Origin: Phascolarctobacterium sp.
GTDB taxonomy: Bacteria; Bacillota; Negativicutes; Acidaminococcales; Acidaminococcaceae
Reading direction: 5' to 3'
NCBI GenBank assembly: GCA_021201965.1
Contig: JAJQDY010000051.1
Location: 1-35,328, forward strand
Length of the DNA stretch: 35,328 bases
Positions 9,494-35,180 of this stretch are shown here, piece by piece (within the stretch, counting starts at the first letter, position 1; the number at the start of each line of letters is the position of its first letter). The translations under genes and the position numbers were made by a program. The notes under the pieces were generated by a model. That model saw only the letters and a list, made by a program, of their open reading frames with translations, was not told the DNA's origin and did not search any database.

Positions 9494-11080
9494 ATGTATT
9501 TAAAAGACGTTAACGAGATCCTTTTCTGCAATGAAGGCGAAAAGGATATTATGATGGAGCCGAAGATGGCAAACCGCCACTGGCTCATAGCAGGCGCACG
9601 GGCACCGGGAAGACCGTGACCTTAAAGGGCATGGCGGAATCCTTCAGCGAGATTGGGGTTCCGGTATTCCTCGCGGACATTAAGGGAGGCGTTTCGGGAC
9701 TTGCCCAGGCGGTGGTCATGAGTGACGGCTTTCAGAAACGCCTCGACAAGCTCGGGGTCAAGGATTTCAAGCTTGACGCATATCTCGTGTGTTTCTTTGA
9801 CGTTTACGGGAAACACGGCCATCCCGTGCGCACCACCATATCGGAAATAGGCCCGGAACTTCTTGCAAGGCTCCTTGAACTTAACGATACCCAGGCAGTC
9901 GTGCTGCTCATAATTTTCAGGATTGCGGACGACAGCGGGCTCCTGCTCATTGACCTTAAGGACCTCAGGAGCATGGCGCAGTATGTTGGCGACCATGCGG
10001 CGGATTATAAGACCAAATACGGCAACATTGCCGCACAGAGCATCGGCGCAATCCAGCGTGCGCTCCTTAAACTTGAGGACCAGGGCGGCGACATCTTCTT
10101 CGGCGAGCTGGCACTTGACATAAAGGACTGGTTGACCACGGCCCCAGACGGACGCGGCATGATAAACATCCTCCACTGCGTGGAGCTTTTCCAGCAGCCG
10201 CTCCTTTACTCCACATTCCTCCTCTGGATGTTATCCGAGCTTTATAACCTCCTGCTCTAGGCAGGCGACATGGATAAACCGAAAATCATCTTCTTCTTCG
10301 ACGAGGCCCACCTCATCTTTAAGGATGCGCCGAAATCGCTCCTTGACTAGGTTGAGCAGATCGTGCGGCTCATTCGTTCCAAGAGAGCCGGCATCTACTT
10401 CATTACCCAGTCGCCGACGGATGTCCTGGACAACGTCTTAAGCTAGCTGGGCAACAAGGTGCAGCATGCGCTGCGCGCCTATTCCCCGAAGGACCAGAAG
10501 AACCTCAAGGTAACCGCCCAGACATTCAGGCAGGAAGAGGGCTTTAATGCGGAAAAAGTGCTCCACGAGCTCGGGACCGGTGAAGTCATCGTCTCCATGC
10601 TGAGTGATGAGGGCGTGCACCAGATGGCATGCTGCGCTTTCGTAATGCCACCGAGGAGCTTTATGGGCGCCGTTGACGAAAACCTGAGGAACTGGCTTAT
10701 AGCTACGAGCCCGCTCTTTAACAAATACAATACCCACATAGACCGTGAATCGGCTTATGAGGTGCTCCTGGCAAAGGCCAACCAGTGGGGCCGCGCAGCC
10801 CAAGCAAGCGGCAGGCCATGCACCGCAGCAGCAGATGCCCAAGGATTACTACCAGAAGCCCCAGGGCGCCGGCGGCATGGGCGACCTTTTAGGCAGCATC
10901 GCAGGCACCATTTTAAGCGGCGCCATGCAGGGAGGCACTACATCAGGCCATGCGCCGGCACGCGGAGGGCGCCAGCAGAAGACCGTCGTGGACCAGGTGC
11001 GCAACAAGATCATGCACCGCATGAAAACACAGATCTGCAACAGCATCGTGCGTAGCATCTTTGGCTGCCTGAAGAAATAA
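9494..11080 (+). pseudogene. HerA-like ATPase/helicase (DUF853, YjgR family), broken by two frameshifts and three TAG codons
   Basis: ATG 9494 follows AGGAGG, and the product resembles Escherichia coli YjgR over about 529 codons. A base is missing at about 9595-9598, inside the Walker A motif: GA before it, TGTGKTVTLKG after it in the next frame. The frame then runs to about 10800 with in-frame TAG at 10258, 10348 and 10444, and shifts back for the C-terminal tail ending at 11080. Walker B is IIFFFDEAHLIF. The 10444 TAG sits where the family has Gln (VLGQLGN in YjgR); the 10348 TAG lies in SLLD-x-VEQIVRLIRS, where Lys or Gln is usual. With a broken Walker A the ATPase cannot be made without frameshifting. 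Confidence 0.88.
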
Positions 11081-20576: not shown

Positions 20577-20822
20577 ATGGTATGGAAAAGGAAACCGGAC
20601 TGCGAATACAAATTCTCAAAGCCCGCCCCCGGAAAGAAGGTATGGTGCGTCCAGGAAATGTATGAAGGCGAGCAGACCGTATAGCCGATGCTCCTCGTAA
20701 GCTTCTACGGGAAGAAAATTTACAACCTTTACGGGGACTACCCTGATAACATGACGCCTGAAGAAGTGGAGATCCTTGATATGGAAAAACCGGGACTGGT
20801 AGAGTTTTTCAAGAAACGCTAG
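20577..20822 (+). pseudogene. Hypothetical protein interrupted by one in-frame TAG
   Basis: A small gene of about 81 codons. AGGAGG (20563-20568) is 8 nt before ATG 20577; an ATG at 20571 is too close. The frame begins MVWKRKPDCEYKF and is stopped by TAG at 20682-20684 in EGEQTV-x-PMLLVSFYGKK, then continues without shift through YNLYGDYPDNMTPEEVE to a TAG at 20820. I accept that last TAG as the true end because the next gene starts 18 nt later. No family recognised. The upstream part alone would be a 35-residue peptide. Confidence 0.55.
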
Positions 20823-20839
20823 GACTGGAAAGGGGAAAA

Positions 20840-21208
20840 ATGGGTAAGAGGACTGAAGTGGCGGAAGATTGAAAGGTACTTATCTGGAAAAGTTTTACAA
20901 TGGACCCTGATGACGCCTTATGGTCGGATGAGAAACTGAGCCTTGACGCGGCCCCGTATCTCGGGATCCTTCCCTAGGGCTTCAGGCGGAAGGTAGAGGG
21001 AGAGCGGATCATCTACGAACGCGTGGGAAAGGTTTATACCATACGTCCCCAGGGGAAGCTGTCCCTTTTCATGTACCCTTAGGTGAGGAGCGGAGGCGCT
21101 GAACCAGTGGAGATGGAAGTTGCGGGGCGCCTTGCCTGGCACCCGAAATATGATGACGGACCCTTTTTTGACGGGCCTTTCGGGGAAGTAGTAGAGGATT
21201 ATGATTAA
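20840..21208 (+). pseudogene. Hypothetical protein interrupted by TGA and two TAG
   Basis: Reading frame of 122 codons from ATG 20840, preceded by AAAGGGG, to TAA 21206. Internal stops are TGA 20870 (AED-x-KVLIWKSF), TAG 20975 (LGILP-x-GFRRKVEGE) and TAG 21080 (LSLFMYP-x-VRSGG). No frameshift is needed, and the translated product looks coherent: a compact, mixed charged protein ending in a Gly/Phe-rich FDGPFGEVVEDYD. Gly at the TGA and Gln at both TAG would be natural. I do not recognise the family. Placed right after the 20.6-kb gene, probably one transcript. Confidence 0.5.
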
Positions 21209-21257: not shown

Positions 21258-21266
21258 TGCTATAAT
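21258..21266 (+). promoter_or_regulatory. Extended -10 promoter for the riboswitch transcript
   Basis: TGCTATAAT, a TGn extended -10 with perfect TATAAT at 21261-21266, immediately before the riboswitch P1 stem. No clear -35. Confidence 0.6.
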
Positions 21267-21268
21267 AT

Positions 21269-21369
21269 AAATAACCATAAAGAGCACGCAAGGGACAGGC
21301 CCTATGACCGTGCAGCAACCTGCCTTATTGGTAAGGTGCTAAAGCCTTGATGATGGGCCATATGGATTT
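21269..21369 (+). promoter_or_regulatory. SAM-I (S-box) riboswitch aptamer
   Basis: Conserved S-box core is readable: AAGGGACAGGCCCTATGA, then CAGCAACC, then AAGGTGCTAAAGCC. P1 pairs 21269-21279 with 21361-21369 (two unpaired A). P2 is GCACG (21284-21288) with CGTGC (21309-21313), with the kink-turn region and GGCCC loop between them. P3 is CCTT (21323-21326) with AAGG (21333-21336). An intrinsic terminator follows directly. S-box RNAs switch off methionine, cysteine and SAM genes when SAM is high; here the downstream gene is not a recognised one of these. Confidence 0.85.
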
Positions 21370-21376
21370 CTGCACG

Positions 21377-21407
21377 GACCCGTCATCGCGATGGGTCTTT
21401 TCTTTAT
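21377..21407 (+). terminator. Riboswitch expression-platform terminator
   Basis: GACCCGTC (21377-21384) pairs with GATGGGTC (21390-21397, one G-U), followed by TTTTCTTTAT. CTGCACGG (21370-21377), just before it, is perfectly complementary to CCGTGCAG (21308-21315) in the aptamer, giving an alternative fold. Confidence 0.85.
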
Positions 21408-21435
21408 GGGCAAAAACATGAAGGAGGGACGGAAA

Positions 21436-21759
21436 ATGCTGATGGAAGTGTATTACGAACACTACATGGAAAACTGCATGGGGAGGTACTGGGAAGAGGA
21501 AAAATACATTCACTATATGGTTAACATCCATGACAAAAATAAGCGGGAAAAGTTCAGGAGGTTCTTTGAGTCTGAGAGCTTTACCTGCGTGGACTGGAAT
21601 CCTGATTACACTGGGGTCCTCGTCAATATTAAGCTGCGCCGTTTTGCGCTTATCTATATGGCCTGCAGGCATTCCTGCGTGGATGAAAGGCCGTATACCC
21701 CGGAGGAATTCATGGATGAAGTATATAACAAGAAAGACGTAATGGAAGGCGGAATCTGA
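21436..21759 (+). CDS. Hypothetical protein under the S-box riboswitch
   Basis: Intact frame of 107 residues. I start at ATG 21436 because AAGGAGG (21421-21427) lies 8 nt upstream and earlier in-frame starts fall in the terminator. The product is rich in Tyr, Glu and Arg, starts MLMEVYYEHYMENC, has five Met in the first 30 residues or so, three Cys, no signal peptide and no membrane segment. No family recognised. As the first gene after a SAM riboswitch it should respond to SAM or methionine supply, which is an unusual position for an unknown small protein. Confidence 0.6.
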   Translation: MLMEVYYEHYMENCMGRYWEEEKYIHYMVNIHDKNKREKFRRFFESESFTCVDWNPDYTGVLVNIKLRRFALIYMACRHSCVDERPYTPEEFMDEVYNKKDVMEGGI

Positions 21760-21838: not shown

Positions 21839-22462
21839 ATGAAATGTCCTAAATGCGGGAGCAGGAAAGTTGCGCCTATAATGTACGGGCTGCCTGCATT
21901 GAGCAAGGACCTGGAAGAGAGACTCAATAACAAAAAATTAGTGCTCGGCGGCTGCTGCGTTTCCGATAACGATCCCAGATACTACTGCTTCGGCTGCGAG
22001 CAGAAGATAGGCTATCCGGCACATTACGGTGACGTGGCATCCGTAAGTTTTTCCAGGGGATAATGGGATCCTGCGCCTGCCAGGGTACTTATGGAAAACA
22101 GCGTCGTCATGGGACCGGTAACGGTATCTGACGCCGTGATCGTGAAATACCGGCGGAAGATGGTTTACCATGAATGGGACAGGGTTTTAAAGAAGCTCTA
22201 CGAAAAATTTTATTTTGCCGAGTGGGAGAAAACCTTGGATGAGCCGGGAGTGGTCGACGGCGAGGAATGGGAACTGGAAGTAGGCCTGAAAAGCGGGAAG
22301 AAAGTGATATTCGTCGGCAGCAACGCCTATCCCCAATACTGGGATGAGCTTAACAAGCTCTTTAAACCATATTTTGAAAGCAGCGATTCACCTGCGGTCC
22401 CTAAACGCTGCGGGAAGAAATACCGGAGGGAGCACCACTACCGGGGACCGGTGATAGAGTAA
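21839..22462 (+). pseudogene. Zinc-ribbon two-domain hypothetical protein split by an in-frame TAA
   Basis: GGAGAG precedes ATG 21839. The N-terminal part has a zinc ribbon, CPKCGSRKVAP near residue 3 and CFGCEQK near 51, with GGCCVSDNDPRYYC between. TAA at 22061-22063 ends the first frame after SFSRG, but the same frame stays open to 22462 and gives WELEVGLKSGKKVIFVGSNAYPQYWDEL. I recall zinc-ribbon proteins from Firmicutes and Bacteroidetes with just this second half (ending WEL...GSNAYP.YW.EL), so both pieces look like one 207-residue protein with a nonsense codon. ATG 22091 could restart the second half. The molecular function of the family is not known to me. Confidence 0.6.
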
Positions 22463-22583: not shown

Positions 22584-24465
22584 ATGCATTGGCTGAGTGT
22601 TATAGGACTTGACAGTTTTAAGGAATATTTAGGCGCAGCAGCAGGATACGCCGATGAGGAAGGAAAGGTATTCCCTGGTTACAGCGGGGAATACAGTTAT
22701 GCGAATATAGGATCTGCCGAGTTTGTCTTCCACAGAGAGGCCAAAGGCGGGAAAAAGAAATACATCGGCTTCAGCAGCCATGTAATTGGCGAGAATATCT
22801 GGGAAGCGGATGTAAGCCATGAAGCACCCGTGGTCCTTGAAGATGACGACAGGCTATGCATATGCCCGCGTTTTAAAGGTGCGGTAAAAGGCGGGGCCAG
22901 GAAGCCGGCAACGCTGCCTATAAGGCTCATCCACGGAGACGTGCTGCCATGTGTGTCGCCGAACGCGGTCATTAAGATGCAGGTGGCGGCATTCCCTTTT
23001 GAAGTGCACTATTTCCCATTGACGGCCAGGTGGTCGAAAAAAATAGGACATGGGCTTATGGCAACGATAATCCATGCCTACGGGAATATAATGGGAAGCA
23101 TGAAGGAAGATCAGTGCTCAAGCGTCATAGAAGCCATGGTAAGGCGGATAGAGAAGCGGGAGACCTGCGGCTATAAAGTGGAGCCGGTAACATTTTATGC
23201 AGTTACCGTCGACACCGCCTATGGCGAGATAGAAATCTGCCACAGCATTGACCAGGTGGCCGAGGAGGAACGGGAGTTTTTCAAGGAATGGTCCTGCATC
23301 TTTGCCTGGGTAGTTGTCCAGGGTGACGTGGCAATTGACGAATACCAGGAGGACGCCGTTTATGACGATGAGCACCTCCGAAGCTTCTGCAGGGTGCCTT
23401 TGAAAATTACGACTTTTCAATGGCCGAATACGCACTGTCAAGCCACGCGATCTACTCCGTGGCGGGCCAGAGGATAATGGGAAAATGGAAGGTAATTGAT
23501 GCCCTGAAAGGCATGTACGGGAAAAAAGTGCATGCCCACATGGGAAAGCAGGGCGACCGGCCCGTGCTCATCCTTGCTGACAAAAATCCGTCCTCTTTTG
23601 ACAGGCTCATATTCATCGAAGTGGACGGTAACAATATAAAGAAAATCACGTCCACGCCGGAGCTTGGGACGCTGAGCCTTGCGGAAGGCTTCAGCTACAG
23701 GAAGGACAGCGCATACATAATTCTTAAAATAATGTCGTACATGATTTATGAAAATGACTGCTCGGGCTCCTTAACTACCTCTCTGAAGATGTGGTCTATG
23801 TGGACGGGGACGGTGAAACTGGAGGATGCTATGCGGCACTTCGGAAACTGGAAAACCTGTGTGAAGATAAGGACGGGAAAAGGCCTGACGTGTACATAGT
23901 CGAGGCGACCGCGCCCGGTGAAAAATACGGGAAACTTGCCCTTGGCCTATCCTTCGCCGGGCCCGATTCATGCCACAAGGTTATTTTCATTCGTCTCGAG
24001 GACGGTAAGATTACATGGATCAAGGCGGATGACAACAATTACCGCATTGAGGAGCTGCATAAGGGATATATGGGGCGCATCCCCAATACCGCCAGTGGGT
24101 GGCTGGAATACTTAAGGTACTGGATTTTGGGAAAACCAATGCCGGAGGAATTTTTCAAGGACCGGGTTGGCAGCGACTGCGTGCTTGACATAGTGAGCTG
24201 CGGCATTATGAGCAAGAAGACCGGCAAAGTGATAAGGCATATTGAGGAAAATGATGATATTTTCTGGATACTGACGAAACTACTGTTTAAGCTGGTTATC
24301 GGCCATCCGTGCAAAGTGGAAGGGGATGCCCTTATATGGCTCCAGTTCAGGATGACGCTGGAATGCGGCGCAAGGGAGAGGATGAAACCGCTTTATGAAA
24401 AAAGCTCAATAAATGAAATAAAGGCGATTAAGTTCGAAGCGATCCTGCCGAGTAAATATCATTGA
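22584..24465 (+). pseudogene. Large hypothetical protein broken by two frameshifts
   Basis: AGGAG at 22571-22575 precedes ATG 22584 (MHWLSVIGLDSFKEY). The first frame is open to about 23388, the second from there to about 23765, the third to TGA 24465; joined, they give about 626 residues. The joins are smooth (DDEHLRS into LLQGAFENYDFS; MIYENDC into LLNYLSEDVVYVDGDGE). The shift sites are not homopolymers. The second and third parts look like diverged copies of one domain: FDRLIFIEVDGNNIKKI and CHKVIFIRLEDGKITWI. No signal peptide, no membrane segment, no known motif. Each fragment has open sequence without nonsense codons, so the frameshifts are recent. Confidence 0.5.
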
Positions 24466-24796: not shown

Positions 24797-25390
24797 ATGG
24801 AGATTTTCGAGCTTAAGAAACCTCATAAGGAAGAAAAGAAAAAGTATAAGATTCATGTGATGTTGCCTGAGCGTACTTTTGTCATAAAGAAGTTACGACA
24901 CGAATATTCGCTTATTGAAAAAGAATATATCGCATCGCTTGATTTCGGTATTGCAACATTGGATACTGCGAAATATAAGCCAATAATATACGATACTAGT
25001 AGTTTAGGAACAGGTGCAGATGAGGAAATTAATACCATTAATGTCGAAATAGAACGAATGAAATATAGCGAATTGACCTTGGTTGGTGAAATATCCCGCC
25101 GCATGAATATCCCCTGTCTTAAAATTTCCAAAATACCAGAAGAATCAGTTGACGAAAAGGACGGCAATAAAGGAACAATTATTAATGCAGTAAATGAATA
25201 TAACGAGATCATTGATGATGTTATTATTTCCAGATTTAAAAACAATGAAGATGAAAATAAACGAAATAAAAGACCTTCTTGGAAGCAATCCCACAACAGA
25301 ACAGCTGGCAGCCTTAGAAAAAGACAAGCGCACGGGCGTGCGGAAGCTCCTTGCCGCCTACCGGAAACGCCTGTAAAAGGAAGCCGTTGA
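24797..25390 (+). CDS. Truncated A+T-rich hypothetical protein fused out of frame onto rnhB
   Basis: Open frame of 197 codons, but only the first 150 or so are plausible protein: MEIFELKKPHKEEKKKYK, then ISRRMNIPCLKISKIPEES and NEYNEIIDDVIISRFK. From about 25245 it reads the rnhB coding sequence in the wrong frame, so the natural C-terminus is missing. There is no good ribosome site at 24797 and the frame is open further upstream, so the N-terminus is also uncertain. Visibly low in G+C and rich in Ile, Asn and Lys, unlike the rest of the window. Faintly like the C-terminal part of restriction-type helicases, but I cannot support that. Likely a transferred remnant. Confidence 0.4.
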   Translation: MEIFELKKPHKEEKKKYKIHVMLPERTFVIKKLRHEYSLIEKEYIASLDFGIATLDTAKYKPIIYDTSSLGTGADEEINTINVEIERMKYSELTLVGEISRRMNIPCLKISKIPEESVDEKDGNKGTIINAVNEYNEIIDDVIISRFKNNEDENKRNKRPSWKQSHNRTAGSLRKRQAHGRAEAPCRLPETPVKGSR

Positions 25391-26108
25391 AAAAGAACGC
25401 CTGGATACCCTCATGCGCTATGAACGCCAGTACTATGCCTACGGCGCAAAATATATAGCGGACGTCGATGAGGTAGGTAGGGGCCCCTTAGCAGGCTCCC
25501 TCGTCGTAGCCGCAGTCATCCTACCGAAGGACGTTTTCATTGAGGGCATAGACGACTCCAAGCAGCTCACGCCCCATAAACGGCAGGTCCTCTACGTGGA
25601 AATAATGGCAAAGGCCATAGACGTGACCGTCAATATCGTAAGCGTGAGCAATATAGATAAGCTCAACATCTACAAGGTCACGCAGGCTGCCATGGAAGAA
25701 GCCATAGCATACCTTAAGTCTGCGCCGAGCGTGGTCTTCATAGACGTCATGCCGCTCCGCGCCAAAACGGCAAAGACCGTCTCCATCGTCCACGGCGATG
25801 CCGTAAGCGCATCCATAGTAGCGAAGGTCACCCGTGACCGGATCATGGAAAAGCTGTAGCTCCTTTACCCCCTCTACGGTTTTGAAAGCAACAAGGGCTA
25901 CGGCCGCAGGAGCTACATGGATGCGATAAAGCAGCACGGCGCATCCCACTGGCACAGGCGGAGCTTTGAGCCCTGCCGCAGCATGGAGCTTACCCCCCAC
26001 GTTGAAGAAAAAGAAAACATCATTTATGCCACGAAAAGGGAAAACTTCGTCTTTGAGCCCAAGGCGGACAAAATCGGCGAAGGCGCCATGGGTGTCATTT
26101 TCCGCTAG
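25245..26108 (+). pseudogene. rnhB: Ribonuclease HII, interrupted by TAA and TAG
   Basis: RNase HII removes ribonucleotides and RNA primers from DNA. A single frame runs from ATG 25245 (or 25251, MKINEIKDLL) to TAG 26106. The N-terminal extension is of the Firmicute type. The catalytic start is DVDEVGRGPLAGS; IDDSKQL, FIDVMP and HGDAVSASIVAKVTRD follow, then YPLYGFESNKGYG and WHRRSF. Internal stops: TAA 25374 (AYRKRL-x-KEAVEKE) and TAG 25857 (DRIMEKL-x-LLYPLYG). GDAVS-ASIVAKV seems to lack about five residues compared with the usual GDAKSLSIAAASI.AKV, so an in-frame deletion is likely. Its start sits at the edge of the A+T-rich segment and its promoter may be lost. Confidence 0.85.
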
Positions 26109-30395: not shown

Positions 30396-33300
30396 ATGAA
30401 ACTTACGAAGAAAAAGACGGAAATGATCCTCCTCACGCTGGCCCTATGCGGATATTTTGCTGCGCGGTGTGAGGCCAATGCTTATGATCCCGGGGCCCGA
30501 TACTGCAATCAGGGCGAGTATGTGGGCGTAATAGCAGATGAGACCATCACAAAAGACTTTTAGCACGATATATATGATATGTCCTACGCTTTTATAAACA
30601 CCACGAAAAAGAAGGCTGCAAGTGCAGGAGGCATAATTGACGGTATTTATAACTGCGAATTTCTTGACAATAAGGCCAATGGGGAGAGGAAATGGAAGCT
30701 CGTCTAGGGTGCGGCTCTCGTTAACGAAGAGGGCTGCAGCATAGGCTACATTGAAAATTGCAAATTCACGAATAACAATGCCAATGTGTGGCAGTCTACA
30801 GTAGGCAATGTTGCTCTTGTTAATTATGTAGGCGCATACGGCGCTGCCATCTATAACGAAGGCACTATCGGCAATATCACTGGAACTTCCTTCAGCGGTA
30901 ACGAATCCGACGCGGGGAGCCTTTTCCAGGGCAGTGCGTACGCCGGCGCCATCTATAACAGTAACAGTATTGGAAACATAGAAAACTGTGCGTTTGATGC
31001 TAACATTGCCGATGCCTGCGGGATTTTTAGAGGAACCTGCGCGGGCGGCGCCATCTATAACAAAGGAACCATTACCACACTTGACAGCCTGATTACGGTA
31101 AACACTGCCGAAAAAGGCGGCGGCGTCTATAACGAAGGGAAAATATGAAGCATTACCGCCACCTTTGCGGAAAATTCCGCCGGGGAGGGCGGCACCATCT
31201 ATAATACGGGAACCATAGAAAGCATTACGGGTGAATTCAGCGGCAGCACGGCAGGGGCCAGTGGCGGCGTTATAAATAACAACGCAGATGCCAGTGGTAT
31301 TTATGCGGAAATCAAGGAAATTTCCGCCGATTTCACGGGCAACAGTGCAGGACGGAGCGGCGGCGCCATTACCAATATGGCGACGGCGGCAACCAGTGCT
31401 CTTGAGGCGGGTACTGCCAAAATAGTTGACATTGTCGGCAGCTTTACGGAAAACTATGCAAAAGCCGCCGCCGGCAGTTCAAGCGGCCTGGTCGATGGCG
31501 GCGCCATCTTAAACAGGGCCTTTGATGGGACCGCGGAAATTGAGAATATAACCGGCTATTTCACAAATAGCTATGTACAGCTGACGGGCGGGACCGGAAG
31601 CATCTACAACAGCATGGCCTACGGCGGCTCCATCTATAACGCTGCGGAGAATGCGTCCGAGTCTTACGCAATAATAGACAGCATCACGGGCATTTTTCCC
31701 GGCAACCATGCCGATGCGGAAAACGGAGCTGCCGGAGGCGGCGCCATCTTTAACGGCACAACCAGCAGCACGAACTAAGCCATAATAGGCGACATTACTG
31801 GCAATTTTGCGGCAAACTACGCGCAGTCGGATGAGTCCTATGCATGGGGCGGCGCCATCTATAACGGAGGCGCGCTGTCAGCAGACGGGAAAGCAGAAAT
31901 AGGTGACATCGAGGGCAGCTTTACCGGAAACTATGCGGAAGCAGGCACGGGAGATGCCTGGGGAGGCGCAATATATAATAATACAAATCAGGAAACACAC
32001 TTTACCATCACTTCCATTACGGGAAACCATGCCGCATCAGAAGGAGGCAGTGCCTACAGCGGCGGACTTGTCAATACGCCAAGCGCGTCACGCAGCAGCA
32101 GCGTCAGCGTCACGGGCGACATAGAGGATAACTATGCGGAAGCGACAGTAAACGCCTGGGGAGGCGTAATATATAATAACAGTACCGGCACGCTTACGGT
32201 CAATGCGGATTCACTTACCGGCAACTACGCGAAAGTAGGCACGGGCTATGCCGTAGGCGGCGGCATCTACGACGGAGAATCGAACAATACCATTACCGTA
32301 ACGGGTGATGTTACGGAGAACTACGCCTAAAGTGAAAGCAGCTATGCCGTAGGCGGCGCCATTGGCGTCGTGGGCGAAAGCAGCATTATCGTGGCAGATG
32401 TTTCCGGAAACCATGCGGAAGGCGTAGCGAGGGCCTATGGCGGCGCCATCTATAACGCGGGAACCATAACGGGCGGTGAAGAAGGAGAACTTGTTGTCGG
32501 CAATCTTATAGGCAACTACGTCATAGGCGCAACGGAGGCCAATGGCGGCGCAATTTACGACACCGTAAGCACAAAGGTTGCCATAGACGGCGATGCCTCG
32601 GGCAACTATGTCAAAGTAACTGACAATAGTGACGTGGCAGGCGGCGTAATTTATCTTAAAAAGATTGAGGAAGGCGAAGGGACCACCATTACCGTGAGCG
32701 GCAATGTCACGGAAAGCCATGCGGGAACGGCAGGCGGCAGCGCCTATGGCGGAGCCTTCTATACGGGTAAGTACGATGAGGAAAACTACGATACCGTAAC
32801 CATAAGCGGGGAGATCATTTCCGGCAACTACGTCAGCGCCATGGAAAATGCCTTAGGCGGAGCAATCTGCAACGAAGGCGTCCTTAATATAGAAGAGGGC
32901 GTGGACCTCATCGGCAATTATACCGTATCAACGGAGGGTGCAGCAGTAGGCGGCGCCATCTTTGATACCATCAGTACGGAAGTCCATATCACGGGCGATG
33001 CGTCGGATAACTATGTGAAGACCTTGGAAGGCGATGTCTACGGAGGCGTAATTTACCTTACCCAAGCGGCAGAAGCTTCAACCGTCATTACCGCCAGGGG
33101 AGACGTTTCGGGCAACCATACGGAAACGGAAAACGGCAGTGCCTATGGCGGAGTGTTCTACACTGATGAGGATGACATCGTCGTCATTGATTGTGACATT
33201 TCGTGGAACTTGGTTAAGGCAAGCGGCGACTTCATGGGCGGCGCAGTCTATAACGCAGGCTCCCTTACCCTTGAAGATGGCGTAAACCTTTCCGGTAACT

Positions 33301-35180
33301 ACGCAAAAGGAGCGGAAGCTGCGACGGGTGGAGCCATTGCCGCCATGGACAGCAGCAGTATCACAATATCGTGGAGAGTCACGGGCAATTACGCGGAAAG
33401 CAGTGACGGCGATGCGGCAGGAGGAGCAATTTCTCTTGCTGACGGCAGCCTTACAATAGAGGGCGACGTAACTGGCAACTATGCGGAAGGTGCGGGCACG
33501 GTCATGGGCGGCGCCATCGTCAATATGGGCGAACTTATCGTAACGGGCAGCATCACGGATAACCGTGCCGAAGGCGAAGAAGCAGCAGGCGGCGCCATCT
33601 ACAACGCCGGCATCATGAACATAATTGCGGACAGTGGCCTCCTTTCCATCAGCGGCAATACGGCAGTAAGCGGCGGCGCTGCGGAAGACAATGCCATCTA
33701 CAGTGACAGGTGGAGCGAAATAAACATCACCCTTTCAGGAATCGGCGAAGTGCTCATGAATGACAGCATTGACGGCGAGGACTACACCGTAACCGTGACG
33801 AGCGAAGATGCGGGCAGCAATATCCTCTACATCTATAACGATATGAACAATGCCGACCTTATCATGGGCAGTATTACGTTAAATACCATAAATAACGAGG
33901 TCCACACCTATGCGATTAAATCATTCAGCCTCAGCGGCGACGTGAACATGGTTGCCGACGTGGACCTGGCAAATGAAACTATGGACAGGATCACGGCCAA
34001 AAGCTACGGCGAGCATGCGGGTACGATCAACATATCCGGAATGAACCTCATCAGCGACACGTCAAAGAGCAGTGTGGAAATAGCCTTTGCGGAAGACGGG
34101 CTTAAGGATTACGTAACGTCATTGGTGGGGACGCTGTCTGACAGCAATAACCAGCAGAAGGCCTACACGCCCCTCTACCAGTACGACTTAAGCTACGACG
34201 ACCGGGATGACGTTGGATACTTCGCCTTTGACAAGGTGGAGAACAACCCTGCGGCCCTGACGTCCCAGGCATCCCAGATGGGACTTTACAATGCTGCCTC
34301 CATGATGTATAACTACGCTTTCGAACACTCGGAATATTACATCCGGCTGCCGAAGGGCGAGCGGCTTAACGCAGAGGGTGAAGAAGGCGGAATATATAGG
34401 AACAACGAACTTACGGAGCAGGGAGTATGGGCAAGGCTCTTCTCCTCCTTTGAGACGGTACCCTTCAAGGGGAACATGACGCTGAAGGCCAAATACTACG
34501 GCGTCCTGGTAGGAGTGGACAGTGCCGTGAAGGACTACGGCAAATGGGCAGGAGTTTTAACGGGATATGTGGGCTATGACGGCATCTATCAGAAGTTTGA
34601 AGGAAACAGCATCAGTCAGAACGGCGGCATAGCAGGAGTTACGGGAACGCTCTATAACAGAAACTTTTATGTTGCGGCAACGGTGGCAGGAGGATGGACA
34701 ACCGCCAAGATCCGCACGATGTACGGATATGAGAACACTCATCTCTACAACTACGGCATTGCGGCAAAGGCAGGATACAACCTGGAGTTCAGAAACGGGA
34801 AATATTCCTTCCTGCCGACGTTCATGGCATCCTACACGAATGTCGGAGCGGATGACTACACGAATGCCGCAGGGTTAAGGATTGACACGAAGGCCATGCA
34901 TGCCTTCCAGCTGAACCCGAACGTTAAGCTGGTAAGGAACCTTGGTAGCGGCTGGCAGCCGTATATTACGATAGGCGAAATATGGACGGTAGGTCAGAGC
35001 ATGGGAGGTACCGCAGACGGGACATCCATCAGCTAGCTGCACATGAGGCCCTTCACGGAATACGGCATAGGCGTGCAGAAACGCATGCAAGGCTCAGGCG
35101 ACGGCTACTCGCAGATCCTGGGACACGCAGGCGGCCGGCGCAGCGCACTCTTTAACCTGGGCTTCCGCTGGAGCTTCTAA
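30396..35180 (+). pseudogene. Autotransporter adhesin-like protein with six in-frame stop codons
   Basis: One frame of 1594 codons with no frameshift. Residues 1-30 form a signal peptide (MILLTLALCGYFA then an AxA-like site). Residues about 150-1070 are a passenger of about 29 imperfect repeats of 33 residues with GGAIYN-type cores and I.G.F.GNYAE, which should fold as a beta-helix. Residues about 1340-1594 are the outer-membrane beta-barrel, starting WARLFSSFE and ending NLGFRWSF with terminal Phe. Internal stops: TAG 30561, TAG 30705, TGA 31146, TAA 31776, TAA 32328, TAG 35034. The longest open piece (32370-35036) has no signal peptide and lacks the last 48 codons, so no functional product is expected without suppression. 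Confidence 0.88.
30838..33606 (+). repeat. Passenger repeat array, about 29 units of ~99 bp
   Basis: Units are marked by GGAIYN, GGVIYN, GGAIFN and similar, each followed or preceded by GNYAE and an I..ITG strand. Spacing averages about 98-99 bp, judged by eye. Units have diverged considerably, so this is an old amplification. Confidence 0.75.

Follow-up and report, generated by a model that had tools for sequence, protein, structure and literature searches.

A P4-less SAM-I riboswitch and the small protein gene behind it in a Phascolarctobacterium genome

The window analysed here is a stretch of 35,328 nucleotides (contig JAJQDY010000051.1, positions 1 to 35,328) from Phascolarctobacterium sp., assembly GCA_021201965.1, a 1.38 Mb draft genome in 92 contigs that contains three S-boxes. 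Two of these precede metNIQ and metK, and the third, in the window, stands before a gene for a 107-aa protein that is followed by a Cys-rich ORF and by an ORF matching a phage family (Table 1). A sequence-only reading of the locus had noticed broken genes in the neighbourhood, and this is confirmed by the coding stretch upstream of the riboswitch, by the long gene downstream, for which no family was found, and by rnhB; the other broken ORFs of the window have no relatives among the S-box loci compared. Recoding of the TAG codons in the upstream stretch was considered and ruled out, since TAG, like TAA and TGA, also serves as the stop of conserved genes in the window and the damage in other broken genes includes TAA, TGA and frameshifts, which indicates decay instead. 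Breaks in trmK, the HerA-type helicase gene and the autotransporter-like gene suggest that reductive decay extends to the genome as a whole. Judged from the sequence, the riboswitch and the 107-aa gene look like an intact unit amid these decaying neighbours. The zinc-ribbon gene expected next corresponds to the 74-aa ORF, which by its position is possibly part of the riboswitch transcript.

Table 1. Features of the window, numbered from its first nucleotide.
Feature	Position	Strand	Basis or remark
trmK, broken	40-610
HerA-type helicase gene (herA), broken	9616-11055
Pseudogene-like coding stretch upstream of riboswitch	20577-21208		four in-frame TAG, one frameshift
Extended -10, TGCTATAAT	21258-21266	+	read by eye from the sequence
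P4-less SAM-I aptamer	21274-21357	+	Rfam 57.1 bits; R1 97.2 bits; covariation
P1 of aptamer	21275-21278/21353-21356	+	4 bp, CCAU/AUGG
P2a of aptamer	21284-21288/21309-21313	+
P2b of aptamer	21292-21294/21300-21302	+
Aptamer pseudoknot	21296-21299/21345-21348	+
P3 of aptamer	21314-21324/21330-21340	+
Antiterminator, GAUGAUGGG (21349-21357) with CCCGUCAUC (21379-21387)	21349-21387	+	fold; 10-nt complement
Intrinsic terminator hairpin, then T-run	21376-21398	+
Ribosome-binding site AAGGAGG	21421-21427	+	8 nt upstream of start
107-aa protein, apparent remote family-c member	21436-21759	+	native codons; iterated profile match
74-aa Cys-rich, zinc-ribbon-like ORF	21839-22063	+	best Pfam match only E 0.06
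123-aa ORF matching phage family phrog_24571	22091-22462		E 5e-6; function uncharacterised
Single long gene that frameshifts appear to have divided among three frames	22584-24465
rnhB (RNase HII)	25235-25859		stop codons in frame near 25377 and 25857
PMP-repeat autotransporter-like gene, broken	30786-35036

A complete SAM-I aptamer, an extended -10 promoter and an intrinsic terminator had been read from the letters, and all three hold. The Rfam covariance search matches RF00162 (SAM) to positions 21272-21368 of the forward strand with a score above the gathering score of 44.4 bits, and RF00162 is the best member of its clan for this element. Inspection of the alignment and of the pair counts, including the pseudoknot, revealed that P1, the K-turn P2, P3 and the pseudoknot between the P2 loop and J3-4 are all present. 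The core SAM-contacting positions, taken from PMC6890682 and mapped by eye, are retained with the exception of position 8, where C is replaced by A. The extended -10 is evident from direct reading and receives no score from a -35/-10 consensus scanner because a -35 box is absent, and the terminator is a hairpin followed by a T-run.

The description of the element as an orphan S-box did not hold, as it belongs to a recurring subgroup of compact SAM-I aptamers without P4. The subgroup was first seen when all S-boxes of 59 genomes of the family were listed, in which its members have weak Rfam scores, occur several per genome and come mostly from one genus. The window element and the aligned members share a 4-bp P1 of the form CCAU...AUGG, a 9-nt linker between P3 and P1 that leaves no space for P4 (14 of 14 aligned members) and a terminator and antiterminator formed with that same strand. 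Pair counts in the alignment of 14 sequences give 99.7% paired and 14 cells changed on both sides, the window itself contributing compensations to P2a, to P2b and to the pseudoknot. A covariance model of the subgroup, R1, was built from these 14 rows and separates 33 elements at 85-113 bits from everything else, at about 62 bits or less, in 380 Negativicutes genomes; the Negativicutes members fall into families f1 and f15, the latter including Anaerovibrio lipolyticus.

We also searched for the P4-less core by an exact pattern (AGCAACC N9-32 GGTGCTAA N9 GATGG), which matches at least 119 genome stretches and 41 viral contigs, and R1 gives a strong match to 33 of the 41 viral contigs and to every listed genome stretch except two. 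The subgroup is spread widely through gut Firmicutes and their phages, ranging over Clostridia, Bacilli, Anaerovibrio and phages, with an aptamer present in Ruminococcus phage NatCom_28274. Pairing over the whole structure, pseudoknot included, reaches 98.3% in 88 of these aptamers, and compensatory cells number 233, compared with 55 in shuffled and 8-29 in slid controls; since columns 44-50, 89-96 and 106-110 of this alignment were fixed by the pattern, conservation in those columns is not independent evidence. The open-access literature, to which our search was confined, gave no description of a P4-less SAM-I class or of phage SAM riboswitches.

Compared with SAM-I (RF00162), the window element shares the K-turn, P1-P3, the pseudoknot, the SAM-contacting core, the terminator/antiterminator platform and a score above gathering, but it has no P4 and a P1 of only 4 bp, and in Negativicutes the subgroup stands mostly before accessory genes. 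Since it keeps the SAM-I score and core while P4 is missing, we file it as a SAM-I variant. The ligand core is the same in SAM-IV and SAM-I/IV, the other members of the SAM clan. In SAM-IV, P4 is likewise absent, but P5 and a second pseudoknot are present (PMC6890682), features absent from the window element, in which the terminator/antiterminator stands after P1; SAM-I/IV, unlike the subgroup, carries P4 and is without the first pseudoknot. For all subgroup members tested, Rfam prefers RF00162 over the clan alternatives.

The expression platform consists of pairings that are mutually exclusive, with the antiterminator, for which a sequence search finds a 10-nt complement, competing with both P1 and the terminator. 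A leader ending at 21388 folds the antiterminator (-41 kcal/mol), and once the 3' arm of the terminator is included the minimum-energy fold contains P1 and the terminator. We infer from these folds a transcriptional OFF switch that is on at low SAM. When SAM is plentiful, the bound aptamer would form P1, exclude the antiterminator and let the terminator end transcription, whereas at scarce SAM GAUGAUGGG would pair with CCCGUCAUC, the terminator would be blocked and the 107-aa protein would be made.

The 107-aa protein was said to have no known family, and indeed neither Pfam nor PHROG has a family that fits; a Pfam match to Med25 (E 0.001-0.009) lies below the Pfam cut-off and is attributed to chance. 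Its ORF has a codon score of 0.31 per codon, within the range of 0.24-0.57 of 19 conserved genes of the window, compared with -0.49 and -0.70 for the shifted frames. The earlier suggestion that homologues might be sought behind other S-boxes was answered in two parts. Direct searches of 100 relatives, genome contigs, viral contigs, phages and plasmids found no close homologue, the protein being found in this genome only, and a remote relation emerged to family c, whose members follow P4-less S-boxes.

The relation to family c comes from profiles. Without iteration the family-c profile gives the 107-aa protein an E value of 0.077 among 3,606 ORFs, ranking just below the proteins of S-box loci; iterated without the 107-aa protein, it gives 0.0018 and then 0.0006-0.0007 in the same set, and none of 5000 shuffles equals the iterated-profile score. 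This was a follow-up whose idea came from viewing the sequences, and it was not blind. Iterated profiles alone find the relation: identity to family c is only about 15-23%, pairwise BLASTP against the second domain of L290 gave no match, and a six-frame genome search with the un-iterated family-c profile misses the protein. The gene also lies directly behind a P4-less S-box (21274-21436), as in family c, a likeness that is not independent because loci of this kind were the source of the family. Taken together, the profile data suggest that the 107-aa protein is a distant relative of family c.

An AlphaFold2 (AF2) model of the 107-aa protein with family c as the alignment has the order strand-helix-strand-strand-strand-helix at moderate confidence (pLDDT 76.5), and a model of family a displays a similar layout at higher confidence, the comparison being one of layouts. 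The 107-aa protein shares with families a and c its size, a position about 80 nt past the aptamer and a similar strand-helix-strand-strand layout in the AF2 models, and with family c additionally the remote profile match. Foldseek searches of both models against the PDB gave nothing significant and profile searches of PDB sequences were empty, while against a viral library Foldseek returned just weak matches to uncharacterised phage proteins.

Families a (A5, about 100 aa) and c (A3), which find no identity in Pfam, PHROG or NCBIfam, are fused to each other in both orders at L305 and L242. Of 159 elements listed, a sample that depends on the search pattern, 47 have metK as their first gene, 40 have one of the two small-protein families, 8 priA, 7 FGase (PF05013) and 57 something else. 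As metK is the commonest gene among these matches and stands behind the subgroup in many genera and in viral contigs, SAM is likely to be the ligand. The proposal that the unknown genes take part in SAM metabolism is supported by association, through this frequency of metK and a Clostridia locus (L215) in which the riboswitch is followed by a family-a protein, an FGase-like protein and metK. FGase genes stand behind the subgroup riboswitch in Anaerovibrio, genus g13 and Clostridia (L188, L192, L197, L294 and L324). In genus g13, one locus (L196, 6363-11700) carries three tandem P4-less S-boxes with one cassette each, with a truncated 114-aa copy of metK at the end of the array.

On these data we place a probability of about 0.7 on a functional P4-less SAM-I OFF switch whose 107-aa protein is a remote member of a small alpha/beta family found behind the subgroup; we infer a role in the response to low SAM, which is probable since the family repeatedly follows this riboswitch in Firmicutes and phages. 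The same element could be drawn as an ordinary S-box in which a small P4 is present. In the Rfam alignment the 3' strand of P1 lies further downstream (AUAUGG), and the full leader in its lowest-energy fold likewise pairs CCAUA with UAUGG at 21360-21364 and allows, for the window alone, a P4 of GCC/GGC. Comparison with the relatives places the strand at 21353-21356 (AUGG) without P4, and the downstream register would disrupt a pseudoknot that covaries across the subgroup, while both the 9-nt linker and the AUGG strand recur in the closest relatives and the window element reaches 97.2 bits with R1, of which it is a training row, against at most 62 for other S-boxes. We consider an ordinary S-box highly improbable.

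We give still less credence to a changed ligand, although it has been proven that SAM-I variants can come to sense something else, namely spermidine (PMC10853860, Salvail et al. 2023), and many genes behind the subgroup are not methionine genes. The spermidine variants resemble the window element in SAM-I architecture, in acting as transcriptional OFF switches and in their unusual downstream genes, but they keep four stems and change the SAM pocket, at J1/2 and the P3 internal loop, whereas the window element has lost P4 and kept the SAM-contacting positions; in the wider set of aptamers, only columns 4, 5, 9 and 10 show this conservation independently of the search pattern. That metK is the commonest downstream gene among the matches listed also speaks against such a change. 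The remaining explanation, already raised from the sequence, is that the riboswitch outlived its methionine or SAM gene, which disappeared as the genome was reduced, and now stands beside an unrelated or dying ORF. It fits with the broken genes on both sides, with the lack of a close homologue of the protein in anything searched and with the canonical S-boxes that already cover metK and metNIQ. The aptamer, platform, ribosome-binding site and ORF are all intact, however, and the codon usage is native; P2a, P2b and the pseudoknot all show compensatory changes, and related small-protein families stand behind the same RNA elsewhere, which also argues against a relic, a reading that we regard as unlikely.

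SAM-I is the best-studied SAM riboswitch, and despite this the P4-less subgroup often controls genes of no named family. If the association is true, the riboswitch points to low SAM as a condition under which the function of several orphan small-protein families can be tested, both in bacteria and in phages with their own metK or DNA methyltransferase. For structural studies, the subgroup is in addition a natural source of minimal SAM-I aptamers.

In phages, a search starting from a family-a protein found a P4-less S-box about 90 nt upstream in all 11 viral loci that have upstream DNA. Phage family-a genes stand tail-to-tail with a long gene on the opposite strand, a DNA methyltransferase or similar (L339, L343, L368 and L370-L380), and at L339 this is a C5 DNA methyltransferase (PF00145, 4.9e-40); in the Ruminococcus phage, an annotated DNA methyltransferase lies in the same cluster as the aptamer. 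PADLOC gave no convincing defence match. Given the tail-to-tail arrangement, read-through from the S-box could be antisense to the opposing gene. We tentatively raise the possibility, doubtful as it is at present, of a mobile, partly phage-carried regulon in which P4-less SAM-I riboswitches have become the usual control of an unnamed superfamily of low-SAM response proteins that protect or adjust the use of SAM, with the window protein as a bacterial branch; DNA methylation is offered as an example of such use because of the C5 DNA methyltransferase gene that faces the phage gene. In other viral contigs (L341, L345, L347, L350 and further IMG/VR contigs) it is metK that apparently follows the P4-less S-box, either as a phage gene or as host DNA.
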